A stretch of DNA of 22,982 nucleotides from a virus. The stretch spans positions 1-22,982 of the IMG/VR virus record IMGVR_UViG_3300035682_000203. One strand, written 5' to 3'. The notes below the pieces were generated by a model. That model was not told the DNA's origin. It made no database searches and worked only from the letters and a program-made list of their open reading frames with translations. Shown here in pieces: positions 4,358-18,608 of this stretch. The position numbers and the translations under genes are program-made. How positions within the stretch are numbered: the first letter of the stretch is position 1; each line of letters begins with the position of its first letter.

Positions 4358-6979
4358 TTATGTCTCTGCTGGGGGTCTAGGTAAACGATTTATAGTTTCT
4401 GGTGCGCAACGCATATAGGTTTCCGGTTTTCCATTTTTACCTATTATAGGTTCGTCATTAGAATCAAGTTTTGGATACGCTCCATCCATTACGCATGCGA
4501 TCGTTCCGGACCTTGGACGAATTACAGTATTGTCTTTAGTTTGTAATGCAACATGAATCCAAAATTTTGTAATATCTCTAGAATAGATTGTATCTGTTTT
4601 AAATTCTAACAATAGTTGTTTAAAGGGAATATTTTGCGTCATCCATTCTGCAATTTTAACATGCTTCATTCTATCTACATTTCTCTGAGATTTACTCATA
4701 GATTCAAAGGGAACTGTTCCAAAATGTATATCTGCTGCACATCCTATATCGTGATCGCTAGCAGATGTAGATGTGCCCGCTTTTCTTAGGCCGCTGCTTA
4801 TTTGAAATATACCAAATTTTTGTAGGAGAGGTTCTAACACATTCTCAGCTAAAATGCGCATATTAATAACTATTTCTTTGGAGGTTAAATTACGCTGCGC
4901 AACCAATGGTCTTAACCCCAAATCACCGATAGATAAGCTCGCAATAGTAAAATTTTTGGATAATCTAAATGTGCCCGGAAAATATGTTGCTGACCGAATA
5001 TCTGAAAAATCTAAAGATTTTAATTTGGAATCATTTGTATCCGTAACCGGATAGGTGTCCTTTGCCGACACATCTGTAGCAACTCTAATATATTTAGATT
5101 CGCTGGCTGTTGGGGTATATTCTTCTGCATCATCTAAGCATTCCGCGTCACTTAATGCCCTAGTCATTGCAGCAGGTTCTGTTTTAGTAATTACCTTTAC
5201 ATTTGGTAAATCGGATGCTTTAAAATTTGTATTTGCTACAGATGCGGCGCCCATTTTATTTTTTATAAGTGGTGCATCAAGCGATAATATTGCACCCGCT
5301 CGCATACTTGCATTTATCTTTCCATCTATCGCAATATCATTAGATGCACTAAGAGCTAAATTGTTTTTAGATTGGATATTAATACTGTCCCCTATAATAT
5401 TTAATGCTCCTCCTGCTACAATATTTAAAGTATCTTTTGTAGTAATTTCAGCCTTGTTCGCATTAATTGCTACTACGCCCGCACATTCTGCAGTCATATT
5501 TCCGTGACTAATAATTGAAGTATCTCCGTCAACTTGTATTGACGCATCATCTTTTACATAAATGCTAGTTTTACCCTCAATAGTTAATTTCTTTGCACCC
5601 CTTACAAATACATAATCATTTTTATCAATTAGTTCGTAATTATCTCCTATTACTTTTCTAACAGACGAACCATTAATATCAATTTCAATATAAGATCCTG
5701 AAGTGTGAAATAGATGTATTCTTTCAGCATTCGGCGTACTATCTAATTCTAATATATGCCCAGCTTCAGTTTCAATTACTTGATTATAAGGATATGCTGC
5801 ACTATATGCGGAATTAGGTTCACTCCACTTTTCATTAGAATTTGCTATTTGAACATTTTTTATTTGTTTATTTTCTTTAATTGTAAAGTATCTATGAGAA
5901 GTGTCTCCTATTGCCAATTTGTTCACATCAGTATAACCTGCGTAATCTTTTTTAGGATATTTTTTTTCTGGATCCGAAAATGCTTTTTGATTCTGTATTT
6001 CTTTAGGGGTAGCACTATCAATAGTATTCTCAAAAGTATTTTTAGTTGTAGATCCTGATAATATATCGCCACCTAAACTAGTATTACCTACAATAAAAAA
6101 TTCTTCAGCTTTTCTTCCGTAATTATCTTTTCTTTGTAGATTGTCTGCATACTCCGCACCTATTACATGAGCAGATGCTAAAAATCCCGCAACTAAAAAT
6201 CTATCTTCAACCTCAGTAATTTTATCTGTACTAATCATTCTTTCATAATTTAATTTTATTGTATTATCCATCGCAGTTTCCTGCGTCGTTTTATTGGATA
6301 AAAAATTATCTTTAGATTTTATATTTTCTTTGCCGGTCCAATATGCAGTATTATTTGCAGCATTTGGATCAAAATATTCTGCAATAGGGATGCGAATGTA
6401 TCCCAAGTCCTGCAATTGTAATAAATTAAATTGGTATTTGCCCAGCTCGCCAAATTCTCCTACTTTGTCGTAATTGGAATTAGATAATTTATTGCCTAAT
6501 GCGTCTTTCAATTTGCTCAAATCTGATGCGACCAGCGGTTTTAGTGATTCATCAATACCAACAACGGATTCATTAGACGCAGCGATTGCATTGTTATTCG
6601 TATCATATAGCGCATTGCCCTGTGTATCTTTCACTGTTTTGGTTTGTATTTGTTTACTTTTATTATAGGTTTCAGTTTTAGCAGTTGTTCCAGGTTTCCC
6701 CGCGATTGTTCCCATAATAATGGGTTGCTGAGCTTCTTCAGCATCTAAAAACCAACCTACTACCCAAGAACCAGTAACTATCCCAACAGGGGAAGACCCG
6801 ACTCCTGATGTAGCTGCGGATGTAATGGGTTGCATAGGAATAGCCCACGGCAATTCCGAGGTAGGCAACAGTGTAATATCGTCGGTATGATACCCAAAGA
6901 TTCTTACCTTACATCTACCTAATTTTTCAGGATCATATCTATCTTCAACGACCCCCGTCCACCAATGCATAGTTTTCAT
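4358..6979 (-). CDS. 5: Baseplate hub spike gp5 with two putative cell-wall hydrolase domains
   Basis: This 873-residue protein is much longer than T4 gp5 (575). Residues 5-95 form the gp5 OB-fold (HWWTGVVEDRYDPEKLGRCK, then PIIMGTIAG). Residues about 150-300 resemble a lysozyme/lytic-transglycosylase-like module (GELGKYQFNLLQL near 177-189, a Q-E-T-A helix, and VAGFLASAHVIGAEYA at 263-278). Residues about 400-575 are the repetitive beta-prism typical of the gp5 C-terminal needle. The last 200 residues carry an M15-type DD-peptidase signature: S741-x-H743 to D750 (SDHDIGCAAD) and W807-x-H809 as the third zinc ligand. The protein would pierce the envelope and cut peptidoglycan. The gp27-like partner gene overlaps its start by four bases. 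Hub and spike assignment is firm. Activity of each enzyme domain is inferred. Confidence 0.9.
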   Translation of the reverse strand: MKTMHWWTGVVEDRYDPEKLGRCKVRIFGYHTDDITLLPTSELPWAIPMQPITSAATSGVGSSPVGIVTGSWVVGWFLDAEEAQQPIIMGTIAGKPGTTAKTETYNKSKQIQTKTVKDTQGNALYDTNNNAIAASNESVVGIDESLKPLVASDLSKLKDALGNKLSNSNYDKVGEFGELGKYQFNLLQLQDLGYIRIPIAEYFDPNAANNTAYWTGKENIKSKDNFLSNKTTQETAMDNTIKLNYERMISTDKITEVEDRFLVAGFLASAHVIGAEYADNLQRKDNYGRKAEEFFIVGNTSLGGDILSGSTTKNTFENTIDSATPKEIQNQKAFSDPEKKYPKKDYAGYTDVNKLAIGDTSHRYFTIKENKQIKNVQIANSNEKWSEPNSAYSAAYPYNQVIETEAGHILELDSTPNAERIHLFHTSGSYIEIDINGSSVRKVIGDNYELIDKNDYVFVRGAKKLTIEGKTSIYVKDDASIQVDGDTSIISHGNMTAECAGVVAINANKAEITTKDTLNIVAGGALNIIGDSINIQSKNNLALSASNDIAIDGKINASMRAGAILSLDAPLIKNKMGAASVANTNFKASDLPNVKVITKTEPAAMTRALSDAECLDDAEEYTPTASESKYIRVATDVSAKDTYPVTDTNDSKLKSLDFSDIRSATYFPGTFRLSKNFTIASLSIGDLGLRPLVAQRNLTSKEIVINMRILAENVLEPLLQKFGIFQISSGLRKAGTSTSASDHDIGCAADIHFGTVPFESMSKSQRNVDRMKHVKIAEWMTQNIPFKQLLLEFKTDTIYSRDITKFWIHVALQTKDNTVIRPRSGTIACVMDGAYPKLDSNDEPIIGKNGKPETYMRCAPETINRLPRPPAET

Positions 6980-11969: not shown

Positions 11970-12662
11970 ATGGCATTGCCTAAATTAGAAACACCCAGTT
12001 ATGAATTGATATTACCGTCAACCGGTCAAAAAATTAAATATCGTCCTTTTTTAGTAAAGGAATATAAGATTCTATTAACTTCGTTGGATTCCGATACTGA
12101 AGAAATCCAACGAGTAATAACAGATCTCGTAGATGTTTGCACCTATAATAAATTAAAGATTAACGAAATTCCTAGTTTTGATATTGAATATATCTTTTTA
12201 AATTTAAGAGCAAAGTCTATCGGGGAAAAAACAAATTTAACTTTGGAATGTACTAGTTGCAGCACAAAAATTCAATTTGAATTAGATTTAACTAAAGCGG
12301 AAGTTAAAAAGAATCCTAATCATTCAACTAAGCTTTTTATTACAGATACAATTGGTTTAGAGATGAGATATCCTAGATTCGATGAGTTGATGAATATCTA
12401 TAAAGATTTCAAATCCGATAATGTCGTAGAATTATTATGTATGTGCATAAAGTCGGTATTCACTGAAGAAGAAAATTATGATAATTATACTAAAGAAGAA
12501 ATGTTAGAATTTGTAAATTCTTTTTCTAAAGCGCAATTTGATATTTTAGAACAATTCTTTTTAACTATGCCAAAAGTAGTACAGCATATTGAACATGATT
12601 GCCCAAATTGTGGCGCAAAAAATGAAACAAATCTGGAGGGTTTACAAAATTTTTTCGCCTAA
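11970..12662 (+). CDS. 26: Baseplate hub assembly chaperone gp26 (tail assembly chaperone-like, putative zinc site)
   Basis: This 230-residue protein compares with 208 in T4 gp26 and belongs to the T4 base-plate-protein family. Conserved points are the opening LPKLETPSYELILPSTGQKI, the KYRPFLVKEYK strand (residues 23-33), and two CxxC pairs, C94-C97 (ECTSCS) and C211-C214 (DCPNCG), which probably bind zinc. A good Shine-Dalgarno sequence (GAGGA) lies about seven bases upstream. The 3' end runs through a slippery tract at 12647-12656 just before its TAA, and the -1 frame beyond it continues into a gp51-like extension. Together with the tape-measure gene downstream, this is the classic layout of the G/GT tail-assembly-chaperone pair. 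Confidence 0.85.
   Translation: MALPKLETPSYELILPSTGQKIKYRPFLVKEYKILLTSLDSDTEEIQRVITDLVDVCTYNKLKINEIPSFDIEYIFLNLRAKSIGEKTNLTLECTSCSTKIQFELDLTKAEVKKNPNHSTKLFITDTIGLEMRYPRFDELMNIYKDFKSDNVVELLCMCIKSVFTEEENYDNYTKEEMLEFVNSFSKAQFDILEQFFLTMPKVVQHIEHDCPNCGAKNETNLEGLQNFFA
12647..12656 (+). promoter_or_regulatory. Tandem slippery heptamers, putative programmed -1 frameshift site
   Basis: In the gp26 frame the last codons are AAT TTT TTC GCC TAA. Two overlapping X XXY YYZ heptamers are in phase: A AAT TTT (12647-12653) and T TTT TTC (12650-12656). A -1 slip at either one gives the same joint peptide, reading on as Phe-Phe-Arg in the frame that ends at the TAA at 12848-12850. The stop codon lies three bases after the second heptamer, within the usual stimulating range. 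I see no strong downstream hairpin. Confidence 0.72.
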
Positions 12663-12850
12663 CTCTTTCTCATGAAGGTCTTTTAAATTATTATCAGTTG
12701 AATTTTTCACTTATGCAGCATCACAAATATTCGCTGTCTGAAATAGAAGATATGATACCGTGGGAAAGAGAAATTTACACTACATTATTAATTAGATATA
12801 TCGATGAACAAAATGATAAACTAAAACAAAAAGCAATAAAGGATTCATAA
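12656..12850 (+). CDS. 51: gp51-like extension, read as gp26-gp51 frameshift fusion
   Basis: This frame is -1 relative to gp26. It is open from 12626 (after a TGA at 12623-12625) and ends at TAA 12848-12850. From the slip it encodes 64 residues, starting RLTLSHEGLLNYYQLNFSLM and containing the block SEIEDMIPWEREIYTTLLIR, which is typical of the T extension of tail assembly chaperones and of gp51-type proteins. A fusion would be 293 residues. The only in-frame ATG (12713-12715) has no ribosome site and would omit the first 19 residues, and no start sits between the upstream stop and the slip. Fusion by frameshift is therefore the simplest way to express it. The gp29-like gene starts one base after its stop. 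Confidence 0.75.
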   Translation, partial: RLTLSHEGLLNYYQLNFSLMQHHKYSLSEIEDMIPWEREIYTTLLIRYIDEQNDKLKQKAIKDS

Positions 12851-12851
12851 A

Positions 12852-14456
12852 ATGGCTTTGCCAACCAATCAATTAACTTCTGTAGATAAAGAACTATTAT
12901 CTGCCGCTAAATCTCAATCTTCTTTGTTGAACAGACAAAGTTCGGTGTTAAAGGGATTAACCGATTCAATAACGAAGCAACGAAAAGAATTAGAAGAATT
13001 GAGACGAGCCTCAACTAATCAAAAACAATTCTTAGGTGGCAACGGAGGAATGTCGTCATTAGCTAAAATGTTTGGAGCAAAAGGCGCAGCCACGGGGTTA
13101 AAAGGTTCTCCGCTTGGACCTAAAGATGAAACCAATACAGGGTTCTTTAAAAAAATAGTTACCCAAATTACAGGCCCATCTAGATACCAACAACAGCTAA
13201 TTAATGAAATAATAATATTAAAAGAAGTTACGCAGCGTCAAGCTCAAGATATTGCTTTTATTAAAAGCCAATCTGAACCCGGCGCAAAATCTCAAGAAAG
13301 ATCTTTGCTAGCATCGGCAATTGCAAAAGCAATGGGAGAAACAGAAAGACCATCTGACTCTTCGGAAGGATCCGGTGGTATTATTTCTACAGCAGCTAAG
13401 GGGATTGGCGGGGTATTAAAATCTCTAGTTGTAGGATTTGGTGCAGCATTGACAGGCGCTGCAATGTTAATTACTAAATTTGGAAAAAGTTTACCTGGTA
13501 TATTTGTTGGCGCTTTGCGTCTAGCATTAACACCCGTTGGCATTGCTGCGATAATTGCTGCGTTAATAGGTGTAAAGGCATACAAAGAACTACAAGGAAA
13601 AACTGAAGGAGCCGGCGTTGATGCAGACGGTAAACCAATACAACCAACAGATGGGTATGTAAAAGACGAATCGTTTTTAAATAAATTAAAACGCTTCTTT
13701 AGCGGTGAAAATGCATCTGACGTGTGGGATAAAAAGAATAAAGATGGCAGCCTCAAAGCCCAAAGAAATCGTCGCCCGCAAGTATGGACCGGAGTTATGC
13801 AGGCAGACAAAAGGCCAGACGATCCTGAGGCAGCTGCAGCATGGGATAAACAATTCGGTGGGAAATATGATCCCACTACAGGGAATCGACTTCGACAGCT
13901 TGATGAACAGGTTGTTGCTAGAACTAGGGGGTCAATATATATACCAGGACAAGGTTGGCGACACGGCGGAGCAAAAGCCGAACCTGACCCAAAAGATAAA
14001 GATGCAATGACCACTTTAGATGACGCATTAGACACAACTACGGACTATTTTAAAGATTTCAACGAAACAATGAAGAAAGCTCTTGAAGGATTCGAAAAAA
14101 TTGGTGAGAATATAGTTGATATAGCAAAAGACACATTAGATCCTACAAAAATTGAAGGCATGCTAAATAATTTATTAACTATTAGTTTTGGTACACCAAC
14201 TACGGATACTATAAATTTAGCACCATACTTAGGTACAGCAATAGTACAAACACTTAAAGATATAACAGAAGAAGGAGCTAAGATAAAGGATTATGCTGTT
14301 GAAAAAGCGCAAGCCGCCACAAATATTGTAACTAATAACACTGTAGTAGGTGGGGGAAATAATCAAGGATCCAATTCTGTCCTTAGCCCGGGAAGTGCTA
14401 AAAGAGATAAAAGAGACTCTTGGGGAATATGGACTGACGGAATGGGTAAACGATAG
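12852..14456 (+). CDS. 29: gp29-like tail tape measure / baseplate hub protein
   Basis: This 534-residue protein compares with 590 in T4 gp29. It follows the chaperone pair, the standard place for the ruler gene. Residues about 8-60 form a coiled-coil-like helix (LLNRQSSVLKGLTDSITKQR, then KELEELRRAS). Residues about 110-145 are a second helix (YQQQLINEIIILKEVTQRQA). Residues about 176-243 are glycine/alanine-rich and hydrophobic, as in membrane-penetrating segments of tape measures. The remainder is charged and low in predicted order, with a helical stretch near 395-430. It would set tail length inside the tube and enter the cell ahead of DNA. An AAGGA ribosome site lies about ten bases upstream. 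A 247-codon open frame on the opposite strand is a shadow of this gene. Confidence 0.82.
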   Translation: MALPTNQLTSVDKELLSAAKSQSSLLNRQSSVLKGLTDSITKQRKELEELRRASTNQKQFLGGNGGMSSLAKMFGAKGAATGLKGSPLGPKDETNTGFFKKIVTQITGPSRYQQQLINEIIILKEVTQRQAQDIAFIKSQSEPGAKSQERSLLASAIAKAMGETERPSDSSEGSGGIISTAAKGIGGVLKSLVVGFGAALTGAAMLITKFGKSLPGIFVGALRLALTPVGIAAIIAALIGVKAYKELQGKTEGAGVDADGKPIQPTDGYVKDESFLNKLKRFFSGENASDVWDKKNKDGSLKAQRNRRPQVWTGVMQADKRPDDPEAAAAWDKQFGGKYDPTTGNRLRQLDEQVVARTRGSIYIPGQGWRHGGAKAEPDPKDKDAMTTLDDALDTTTDYFKDFNETMKKALEGFEKIGENIVDIAKDTLDPTKIEGMLNNLLTISFGTPTTDTINLAPYLGTAIVQTLKDITEEGAKIKDYAVEKAQAATNIVTNNTVVGGGNNQGSNSVLSPGSAKRDKRDSWGIWTDGMGKR

Positions 14457-16484: not shown

Positions 16485-16751
16485 TCAAAGTGGTAATTTT
16501 CCTCTACGTTTTAAATAATTCTGTTCCTCTGCTTCATTTTGTACTTTATCTTTAAGCGACTGATTTATTAATTTTGATATGGATTCAATTTCAATATCTA
16601 CTTCTTCGCAATATTGTATAATAGCATCCATATATCCAATTTTTTCTCTAATCACACGCTCTTCAATATGCAGGGAAAATTCATTAGGTGATCTAAATTT
16701 CTTGGTTATAATTAAACTATCTGTTAGAATGTATTCTATTTCGTTATCCAT
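16485..16751 (-). CDS. 33: Late-promoter transcription coactivator gp33
   Basis: This 88-residue protein aligns by eye with T4 gp33 (112 residues) over the central helices: IEERVIREKIGYMDAIIQYC corresponds to the T4 IEKMVEEFGMSYLEATTAFL segment, followed by a SLKDKVQNEAEEQNYL block corresponding to IIEKIQSEAIDENLL. gp33 binds the RNA polymerase beta flap and links it to the sliding clamp at late promoters. The start overlaps the bilin reductase stop by eight bases, and the next gene is gp59, as in T4. The T4 N-terminal acidic arm is shorter here. Confidence 0.85.
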   Translation of the reverse strand: MDNEIEYILTDSLIITKKFRSPNEFSLHIEERVIREKIGYMDAIIQYCEEVDIEIESISKLINQSLKDKVQNEAEEQNYLKRRGKLPL

Positions 16752-17421
16752 GTGTTTCCGGGAATAATACTTCGTCCATAAAATTTGTAAAAACTTGTTT
16801 GTCTACTCCAAAATTTACCATCATTGCTGGGGTATGAGGATTCAACTTTTGATTTTTGCAATATCGATTTTGCATAGATATAAAATCTGCATCTTTTACA
16901 CTATTACCTATATTATAAAGGTAATAATCTAGGTTGTCAATAAAAGTATTTACTAGTTGATCATATTCTTCTTGAGTATGAATATTACCCGCAGCTAACA
17001 TTTTTGGACTAAAAATCTTCTGTGCCCATTCCGGAAGTTCTCTTGGTTTACTCCATTGTACTGATGACATTCTATTCTGATACCAATCATATAGATTCGA
17101 TTTTCCTATTTTGGAAAAGTCGTGGAATGCCCCTGTTATCTTATTTTGTCCGCAGACTACATCGAATCCAAAAATTGGATCCGGCGAATCATAATGCGGA
17201 AATATACACATATGCATAACCCACATTTTTTTAGTTGCGGTGGCATCTACTATCTCAATATGCGCTCGTCTAAATTTATCAGATGTCCAAATATAATTCT
17301 TCCATGAAAAATTATCGACATGAATTTCATATTCTGGTTTAAGTGTTTCAACAGAATATTGTTTAAATTTATCAATAACTAATTGTGATAATAAATTTAT
17401 TTGCGGCCAAATTTCAATCAT
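16744..17421 (-). CDS. Ferredoxin-dependent bilin reductase, PcyA/PcyX-type
   Basis: I choose the ATG at 17419-17421 (225 residues, MIEIWPQ). It has AAGGA seven bases upstream, whereas the earlier in-frame ATG at 17454 would lie 41 bases inside the heme oxygenase gene. By eye the sequence follows cyanobacterial PcyA: E56 in AHIEIV (PcyA Glu76), H70 in VMHMCIFP (His88), D87 in IFGFDVV (Asp105), and N194 in YCKNQKLN (Asn219). A C-terminal FGVDKQVFTNFMDEVLF also fits. These enzymes reduce biliverdin with ferredoxin electrons to phycocyanobilin (PcyA) or, in marine phages, phycoerythrobilin (PebS, PcyX). The conserved residues place it nearer PcyA/PcyX than PebS. The product cannot be read from sequence. 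Heme oxygenase upstream supplies its substrate. Confidence 0.88.
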   Translation of the reverse strand: MIEIWPQINLLSQLVIDKFKQYSVETLKPEYEIHVDNFSWKNYIWTSDKFRRAHIEIVDATATKKMWVMHMCIFPHYDSPDPIFGFDVVCGQNKITGAFHDFSKIGKSNLYDWYQNRMSSVQWSKPRELPEWAQKIFSPKMLAAGNIHTQEEYDQLVNTFIDNLDYYLYNIGNSVKDADFISMQNRYCKNQKLNPHTPAMMVNFGVDKQVFTNFMDEVLFPETHG

Positions 17422-17947
17422 TAAAGTCCTTAAGCATAGCAATATTAAAGTCAAATGCTAAATTTGCTTCATTTGCTAATGAAATATCTAATTTACTTCT
17501 CATCTTAGCTGCAAGACCGGGGATATCGTTAAACTTAAACATATTGTTAGGACCAGGTAATAATTTAGCTAATGCCTGTCCTCCAAATAAATCACCCATA
17601 TGGCGAACATAGATATGTGCAAGTAATTTATCTTTATCTAATTTAATGGACTCAATATATTGTAAATATGCTGCAGTAGAATTTTTCATTAGATATATTT
17701 GCATATTATTATTTGCTAATTCTGCAAAATCCAATTCTATCGCTTTTGCCCTCTTAATATCTTCTATTCCTTCGAAGATACCCAATCCATCTGCTAAATA
17801 TTCTAACCGCAAATATATTAATCTAAGTTGATAAAGATAATCAGTATATTTTTTAACATCTACCTGTTTACTAAAAATAGATTTAATAAATGGTTGAGTT
17901 TCTGCTTCTTTGTGTTTTTCTAAAGTTAATTCTTTTAATGAAGACAT
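17414..17947 (-). CDS. ho1: Heme oxygenase (biliverdin-forming)
   Basis: This 177-residue protein is shorter than typical cyanobacterial HO1 (about 240). The proximal heme ligand is H12 in TLEKHKEAE. The distal helix carries the signature LLAHIYVRHMGDLFGGQ (residues 108-124), corresponding to GDLSGGQ of known enzymes. It opens heme to biliverdin IX-alpha with release of CO and iron. The stop codon overlaps the bilin reductase ATG by eight bases, so a biliverdin-to-bilin relay is encoded in one coupled unit. A modest AAGG ribosome site precedes the ATG. The gene starts three bases after the end of a 2OG oxygenase gene. The window shows no phage ferredoxin, so the host must supply electrons. 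Confidence 0.93.
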   Translation of the reverse strand: MSSLKELTLEKHKEAETQPFIKSIFSKQVDVKKYTDYLYQLRLIYLRLEYLADGLGIFEGIEDIKRAKAIELDFAELANNNMQIYLMKNSTAAYLQYIESIKLDKDKLLAHIYVRHMGDLFGGQALAKLLPGPNNMFKFNDIPGLAAKMRSKLDISLANEANLAFDFNIAMLKDFND

Positions 17948-17950
17948 TGG

Positions 17951-18556
17951 TTACGCCTTTCGTCCAGTTGCCGGATATCCAATGTATGGTCGGTGATCAT
18001 ATTTGTAATCCCTAAATTTACCTTTTTTATCTATATAGTGCAAGAATGCTTGTGTTTGTCTAGTACCAGCATAAGGAGTTCTCCAATGATTAAGTACATC
18101 TCCTTTGTAAACAATTAAGTCACCTGGTTCTAAATATATTGCTTTGTGTTCGCCGGTTAAAGTCTCAAACCAAATTTCCCATGGTTCTGGATCATTTGAA
18201 ATGCAGATAGTAGTGGAGTATTCGCAACTTGGTCTATCCTTATGGATTGCCATTTCAGCGCCGGTGTAGTATATCCTAGCATACGTATATGTGGGATTAA
18301 GTAATTTGCCGGTAACCGTTTCTAATAGAGGTTTAAGCTGAAGAGATAAAGATTCAAAACAAAGTGCAGAATAATATGAATACGAATTTGTGATTTGTGT
18401 ATCATTAAAAAGAAATTTATTCTCTTCGGTTTGTTGCGTATTATTTTGCATATACTGAAGAGTTTTTACTAGTTCAAATTCTGTATCTAGATGTACTAAT
18501 AAATCTTTTGAAATTGCTCCCTGAACAACTTCATATAAATCTGTTTCAAATGCCAT
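17951..18556 (-). CDS. 2-oxoglutarate/Fe(II)-dependent oxygenase
   Basis: I take the ATG at 18554-18556 (201 residues), preceded by AAGGAA at good spacing. An earlier in-frame ATG at 18604 runs into the tmRNA downstream hairpin. The double-stranded beta-helix residues are visible: H105-x-D107 (AIHKDRPS), distal H157 (LNHWRTPY) and R166 (GTRQTQA) for 2-oxoglutarate. LEPGDLIVYKGD precedes the second His, as in prolyl-4-hydroxylase-like proteins. Such enzymes hydroxylate proteins or small molecules. The target is unknown, though the family is frequent in marine T4-like phages. It lies just upstream of heme oxygenase, which releases iron, but any functional link is speculative. Confidence 0.88.
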   Translation of the reverse strand: MAFETDLYEVVQGAISKDLLVHLDTEFELVKTLQYMQNNTQQTEENKFLFNDTQITNSYSYYSALCFESLSLQLKPLLETVTGKLLNPTYTYARIYYTGAEMAIHKDRPSCEYSTTICISNDPEPWEIWFETLTGEHKAIYLEPGDLIVYKGDVLNHWRTPYAGTRQTQAFLHYIDKKGKFRDYKYDHRPYIGYPATGRKA

Positions 18557-18579
18557 ATATTTCCTTAATAAAATCATAT

Positions 18580-18608
18580 CCGGTTGATTGGATGATAAGG
18601 ACAACCGG
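18580..18608 (-). terminator. Hairpin after tmRNA, possible terminator or processing signal
   Basis: Seven perfect pairs, CCGGTTG (18602-18608 on the minus strand) with CAACCGG (18580-18586), flank a 15-base loop. The downstream tract ATATGATTTTATT is only moderately T-rich. It lies between the tmRNA body and the 2OG oxygenase start, so it may protect the tmRNA 3' side or weakly terminate. Confidence 0.45.

Follow-up and report, generated by a model that had tools for sequence, protein, structure and literature searches.

A probable programmed -1 frameshift at a conserved T TTT TTC heptamer in the gp26 chaperone gene of an uncultured phage

How is a reading frame translated when it opens inside the end of another gene and has no start codon of its own? 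The question arises from the window analyzed here, i.e. the whole stretch of 22,982 nucleotides corresponding to positions 1 to 22,982 of the IMG/VR virus record IMGVR_UViG_3300035682_000203, from an uncultured phage. Based on comparisons at the sequence level, the product of gp26 in this window is very probably a lambda G/GT-type tail assembly chaperone, made in two forms through programmed -1 ribosomal frameshifting at the heptamer T TTT TTC. The features of the locus are the following (evidence in brackets):

11970 to 12662, + strand: gp26 (TAC-N), predicted to be the chaperone's short form of 230 aa (PF12322, phrog_150, AlphaFold model).
12635 to 12640, + strand: Shine-Dalgarno-like GGAGGG within gp26, 9 nt 5' of the heptamer, a likely upstream stimulator (duplex energy).
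12647 to 12653, + strand: second heptamer, A AAT TTT, overlapping, in phase and non-conserved (20 of 107 dereplicated loci).
12650 to 12656, + strand: slippery heptamer T TTT TTC, X XXY YYZ in the frame of gp26, proposed site of the -1 shift (invariance in relatives).
12653 to 12850, + strand: gp51-like extension (TAC-C) in the -1 frame, 65 codons plus TAA, which joined to gp26 would give the long form (phrog_634; dN/dS).
12660 to 12662, + strand: TAA, zero-frame stop of gp26, one codon past the heptamer (sequence; position kept in 104 of 107 dereplicated loci).
12665 to 12678, + strand: weak predicted hairpin CTTTC-TCAT-GAAGG, a possible downstream stimulator (MFE -3.2 kcal/mol).
12852 to 14456, + strand: probable tape-measure protein, 534 aa (position, hydrophobic/helical composition).

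The last codons of gp26 (12639-12662) read GGT TTA CAA AAT TTT TTC GCC TAA, and both in-phase heptamers reported ahead of the gp26 stop by an earlier, sequence-only reading of this DNA were found, at 12647-12653 and 12650-12656. The fusion protein would be identical from either of them (junction peptide ...LQNFFRLTLSHEG...). Counted from the slip site, the extension comprises 65 residues in the -1 frame (FRLTLSHEG...KDS), instead of the 64 codons given previously; the W-E-R-E-type motif claimed for it is present as PWERE, and its stop is the TAA at 12848-12850. Upstream of the heptamer, a TGA at 12623 interrupts the -1 frame, which contains no ATG, GTG or TTG from this TGA to the heptamer. The earliest possible starts of the extension in the window are TTG 12698 and ATG 12713, 15 and 20 codons into it, bearing out the view that it lacks a plausible start of its own.

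The assignment of gp26 to PF12322 (T4_baseplate) was clear (1.4e-60, 205 bits vs. a curated cut-off of 24.5); it also matched the baseplate hub family phrog_150 (6.3e-62) and carries two CxxC zinc-ribbon-like pairs. The extension, queried with one further junction Phe, matched phrog_634 (gp51 “baseplate hub assembly catalyst”, E 1.7e-26) as well as the C-terminus of phrog_150, indicating homology to the C-terminal domain of gp51 (TAC-C). AlphaFold models, for which the alignment consisted of the window and the viral-contig loci only, reached pLDDT values of 88 for gp26 and 85 for the extension, the latter predicted as three helices. A fold search of BFVD with gp26 retrieved phage proteins resembling gp26 or gp51, along with uncharacterised relatives. 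The predicted fold of gp26 resembled the HK97 chaperone 2OB9 below significance (E 1.4-2.1, prob 0.18-0.21), the gp26 profile had no match among PDB sequences, and the extension fold gave nothing significant against the PDB.

The T4 proteins themselves clarify how the two segments relate. Both T4 gp26 and gp51 belong to PF12322 (8.8e-64 and 7.7e-55, respectively), and gp51 spans positions 13-280 of the 282 of phrog_150 (1e-87) in addition to matching phrog_634 (8.2e-24), i.e. it is a full-length gp26-like protein with an extension-type segment at its C-terminus. Since it covers phrog_150 nearly whole and phrog_634 too, gp51 would represent the long form and gp26 the short form, and because gp51 consists of a gp26-like protein plus the same C-terminal segment, the analogy with G/GT holds. 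The suggestion that gp26/gp51 is a G/GT-type system, kept here as a frameshift pair, is therefore supported, the extension being a phrog_634 homologue. T4 gp26 and gp51 have been listed as hub assembly chaperones, with gp51 required for assembly and absent from the final particle (PMC3004832), and evidence that the T4 hub contains gp26 is cited in the same article (PMC3004832).

Viral contigs of IMG/VR were scanned twice, yielding 160 gp26/extension loci, in 159 of which, window included, the site could be placed; dereplication at 90% identity left 107 loci, which are not fully independent. The in-phase X XXY YYZ heptamer was conserved at the nucleotide level in all 159 loci, as TTTTTT followed by C (n=150), T (n=5) or A (n=4). 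Among the 107 dereplicated loci, the codon preceding the Phe-Phe pair varied (AGT, AAT, TCT, GAT, GGT, GCT) and ended in T throughout, and the first Phe codon was always TTT. Given the amino acids and local codon usage, the nominal probability of the invariant T plus TTT in these 107 loci is ~1e-29, a value that overstates the strength of the test because related sequences are not independent. At other Phe-Phe pairs of the same genes, TTTTTT was used in 2 of 102 cases. As T TTT TTC is invariant, whereas A AAT TTT overlaps it in a minority of the dereplicated loci, the former was taken as the site: of the two heptamers put forward earlier, one stands as the conserved site and the other appears incidental.

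The pattern of substitutions indicated coding selection in the -1 frame from the heptamer onwards. Extension codons 1-14 had a dN/dS of 0.139 when read in the -1 frame, as against 1.20 and 1.47 for the two remaining frames. For gp26, upstream of them, the ratio was 0.198 in its normal frame and 1.88 when shifted by -1. At the heptamer, the columns that vary cease to be third codon positions of gp26 and become those of the -1 frame. The extension frame was always -1, with no premature stop within its first 57 codons in any of 158 loci. The downstream -1 frame is, in short, open and coding and lacks a start of its own, and, as judged from these alignments, purifying selection acts on codons 1-14. 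These values bear on the idea that the extension is a decayed, untranslated remnant of a former gp51 domain, as its missing start and the lack of annotation in some genomes (S-H9-1, S13, DSL-LC03) could suggest; with dN/dS between 0.08 and 0.19 in the -1 frame and 0 of 158 loci with an interrupted frame, this was considered the least probable of the alternatives, and hardly credible.

A different explanation follows from GenBank records (S-PM2, P-SSM2, KVP40), in which gp51 is annotated as a separate small gene; its translation would then depend on re-initiation coupled to termination, at the gp26 stop or just past it. Some relatives have an ATG as the second or fourth codon of the extension, where the GenBank gp51 of P-SSM2 and S-PM2 starts, and TAATG or TGATG is found in KVP40, phiM9 and Vibrio Ackermannviridae. 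However, the first possible starts in the window lie far inside the extension, and no start precedes extension codon 15 in 57 of the 107 dereplicated loci, with codons 1-14 still under purifying selection; for all loci of this kind before dereplication (75 of 158), dN/dS over these codons was 0.186. Independent initiation cannot explain the conserved N-terminus of the extension, because codons 1-14 are selected in loci with no start ahead of codon 15, and re-initiation would leave the invariant in-phase T6 tract unexplained. Re-initiation as the general explanation is thus very unlikely, and coupled re-initiation could add product in relatives with an ATG 2-4 codons into the extension. The sequence-only reading had proposed looking in relatives for the same slippery site and a missing gp51 start; T6 was found in all 159 loci and the lack of an early start in about half of the dereplicated ones, and an independent, well-placed start combined with no slippery tract was not the arrangement seen in close relatives and most distant T4-like groups.

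Signals that could stimulate a -1 shift were evaluated on both sides of the heptamer. The upstream element was scored as duplex energy with the 16S tail, using synonymous versions as the null. A GGAGG-like element occurs 9-10 nt 5' of the heptamer across relatives, whose mean duplex energy was -6.8 kcal/mol vs. -5.24 for synonymous versions (sd of mean 0.13). Stretches elsewhere in gp26 averaged -2.1. When the set was reduced to 20 loci sharing less than 65% identity, the values were -6.95 vs. -4.96. The element of the window is strong (-9.8 kcal/mol, matched or exceeded by 4.6% of synonymous versions). Downstream, the first 13 codons of the relatives folded to -5.68 vs. -2.77 for synonymous versions (-4.48 vs. 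-2.55 after thinning to the 20 loci), a control region differing little, while the hairpin of the window itself is weak and unexceptional (MFE -3.2 kcal/mol, with 38% of synonymous versions as low). Stems downstream vary from clade to clade, and RNAalifold gave no common RNA fold over the 107 loci; the structure is therefore regarded as clade-specific and no consensus pseudoknot is claimed. Taken as a set, the relatives exceed the synonymous expectation both in the Shine-Dalgarno-like element and in predicted downstream RNA structure, in a manner robust to thinning.

These signals also help to weigh a third possibility, namely that RNA polymerase slips on T6, a share of the mRNAs receiving one extra U from which the extension would be read. 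The T6 homopolymer is present in nearly all relatives, as slippage would need, but six bases are short for slippage of a bacterial polymerase, and the selected upstream element and downstream RNA structure fit recoding by the ribosome. Polymerase slippage is accordingly rated as more improbable than re-initiation and somewhat less so than a decayed remnant.

According to the preferred reading, ribosomal frameshifting, the majority of ribosomes would stop at the TAA at 12660-12662 and release the short form, TAC-N, of 230 residues. On T TTT TTC (12650-12656) a minority would slip back one base, probably aided by the GGAGGG at 12635-12640, and continue in the -1 frame to 12850, giving a long form (TAC-NC) of ~293 residues whose C-terminal domain is predicted to be helical and resembles gp51. 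If lambda G/GT is taken as the model, this C-terminal domain would bind the neighbouring tape-measure protein, and the short form would co-assemble with the tape measure until the tail tube forms.

The gene that would supply such a partner begins 1 nt past the stop of the extension, at 12852, and has 534 codons. Its product had a weak family match only (phrog_10613, tape measure, E 0.022), and a tblastn search with it against 50,697 phage records (E up to 0.01) gave no match, the neighbouring genes being well conserved. It had been equated with gp29: its position and hydrophobic, helical character agree with this, and no similarity to T4 gp29 was detected at the sequence level. Position and composition indicate that 12852-14456 is probably the tape-measure gene.

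Other genes of the window provide some context on the phage. A gp5-like hub protein of 873 aa is encoded at 4358-6979 (- strand; Gp5_OB 8.5e-25), and its C-terminal residues 660-828 match the endolysin family phrog_894. Two bilin genes lie side by side at 16744-17454 and 17414-17947 (both - strand): the first matches the ferredoxin-dependent bilin reductases (PF05996, 3.1e-22), the second the heme oxygenases (PF01126, 4.1e-18). Their open frames overlap by ~40 bases, as in phycobilin-making phages, and the host may be a cyanobacterium. The product of 17951-18604 (- strand) matches phrog_2954, labelled “ferrochelatase” (9.5e-50), and no Pfam family.

Beyond the viral contigs, T TTT TTN was found at the gp26 end of the Kyanoviridae P-SSM2, S-PM2, S-H9-1, S-CRM01, ME01, DSL-LC03 and Pelagibacter phage Mosig, of the Straboviridae KVP40, PX29 and S13, and also of Milchi, Yut3, ACP17, phiM9 (TTTTTTG) and XG4 (TTTTTTA). 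Annotated records either give gp51 as a separate gene that begins at or past the gp26 stop (P-SSM2, S-PM2, KVP40) or omit the extension (S-H9-1, S13, DSL-LC03), and no joined gp26-gp51 CDS was present among the public records examined. Several hundred records from cyanophages and related phages carry the label “gp51, baseplate hub assembly catalyst”, which thus probably designates the end of a frameshifted gp26 and not a free gene; such annotations should be corrected, and the absence of gp51 starts would no longer be puzzling.

Ackermannviridae and related Vibrio phages also have gp26 with a gp51-like -1 extension, without an X XXY YYZ heptamer. The shift region is NTT TTY in these phages (ATT TTC, GTT TTC, CTT TTT), some having TAATG at the stop, and the gene that follows is gp5-like and not a tape measure. 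In this group the ribosome may use a different shift site, like that of T7 gene 10, or may re-initiate.

In a phylogenetic tree of 31 proteins, the gp26 of T4-type phages fell into a group of seven with frameshifting PX29, S13, KVP40 and Milchi (support 98/99), and within it joined S13 and PX29 (90/89). T4-type gp51 formed a long, unplaced branch; a single clade of T4-type gp26 and gp51 was missing from the best tree, yet it was not rejected (p-AU 0.279) because the gp51 branch is long. A duplication that replaced the frameshift in T4-type phages is the simplest reading. Taking signals and tree together, we would put at about an even chance a broader scenario in which the frameshift of T4-like chaperones is driven by a selected three-part signal (GGAGG 9-10 nt upstream, an invariant T TTT TT(C/T/A), and clade-specific downstream stems), later swapped by T4-type phages for a duplicated pair of genes, T4 gp26 being nested within the frameshifting Straboviridae.

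In the 2022 work of Vladimirov, Gautam and Davidson, T4 genes 26 and 51 were reportedly identified as TAC-N and TAC-NC, with frameshifting retained in several T4-like groups. That article (Virology 2022;566:9-15) is cited for poly-T -1 signals in the TAC-N genes of T4-like phages (PMC12846349), and for T4-like phages in which a short gene plus a long, fused one take the place of the frameshift (PMC10274946). A literature search on gp26/gp51 and frameshifting returned no direct match, the reference to Vladimirov et al. coming from PMC12846349. Since the frameshift was already published for T4-like chaperones, the locus would be a new case of a known mechanism. Novelty lies in the uncultured member and the wide survey, and perhaps also in the evidence for selected stimulators; the selected upstream element leads to a directly testable prediction of recoding in marine and freshwater phages.

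Among known recoding systems, the -1 signal of Escherichia coli dnaX combines the heptamer A AAA AAG, an internal Shine-Dalgarno-like element ~10 nt upstream and a downstream RNA structure, and its frameshift product is the shorter one. The phage locus shares with dnaX a slippery heptamer, an upstream Shine-Dalgarno-like element and downstream RNA structure; it differs in that the heptamer is T TTT TTC, the frameshift product would be longer and the hairpin of the window is weak. With lambda G/GT and the wider set of -1 frameshifted tail chaperones it has in common a short form and a predicted frameshifted long form, encoded directly 5' of a probable tape-measure gene; the fold match of gp26 to HK97 2OB9 is below significance. 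The T4-like TAC-N/TAC-NC pairs of Vladimirov et al., as described where that work is cited, have the same protein family, the same poly-T shift site and the same two-form logic, the difference being that the window belongs to an uncultured IMG/VR phage. In T4, genes 26 and 51 encode homologous short (208 aa) and long (249 aa) forms with the same C-terminal segment; however, T4, Aes012 and DLP2 encode these forms in separate genes that lie on opposite strands, and in T4 and DLP2 the slippery heptamer is absent from the gp26 end. One protein pair would therefore be made in two ways, by ribosomal frameshifting in the window phage, KVP40 and cyanophages, and from two genes in T4.
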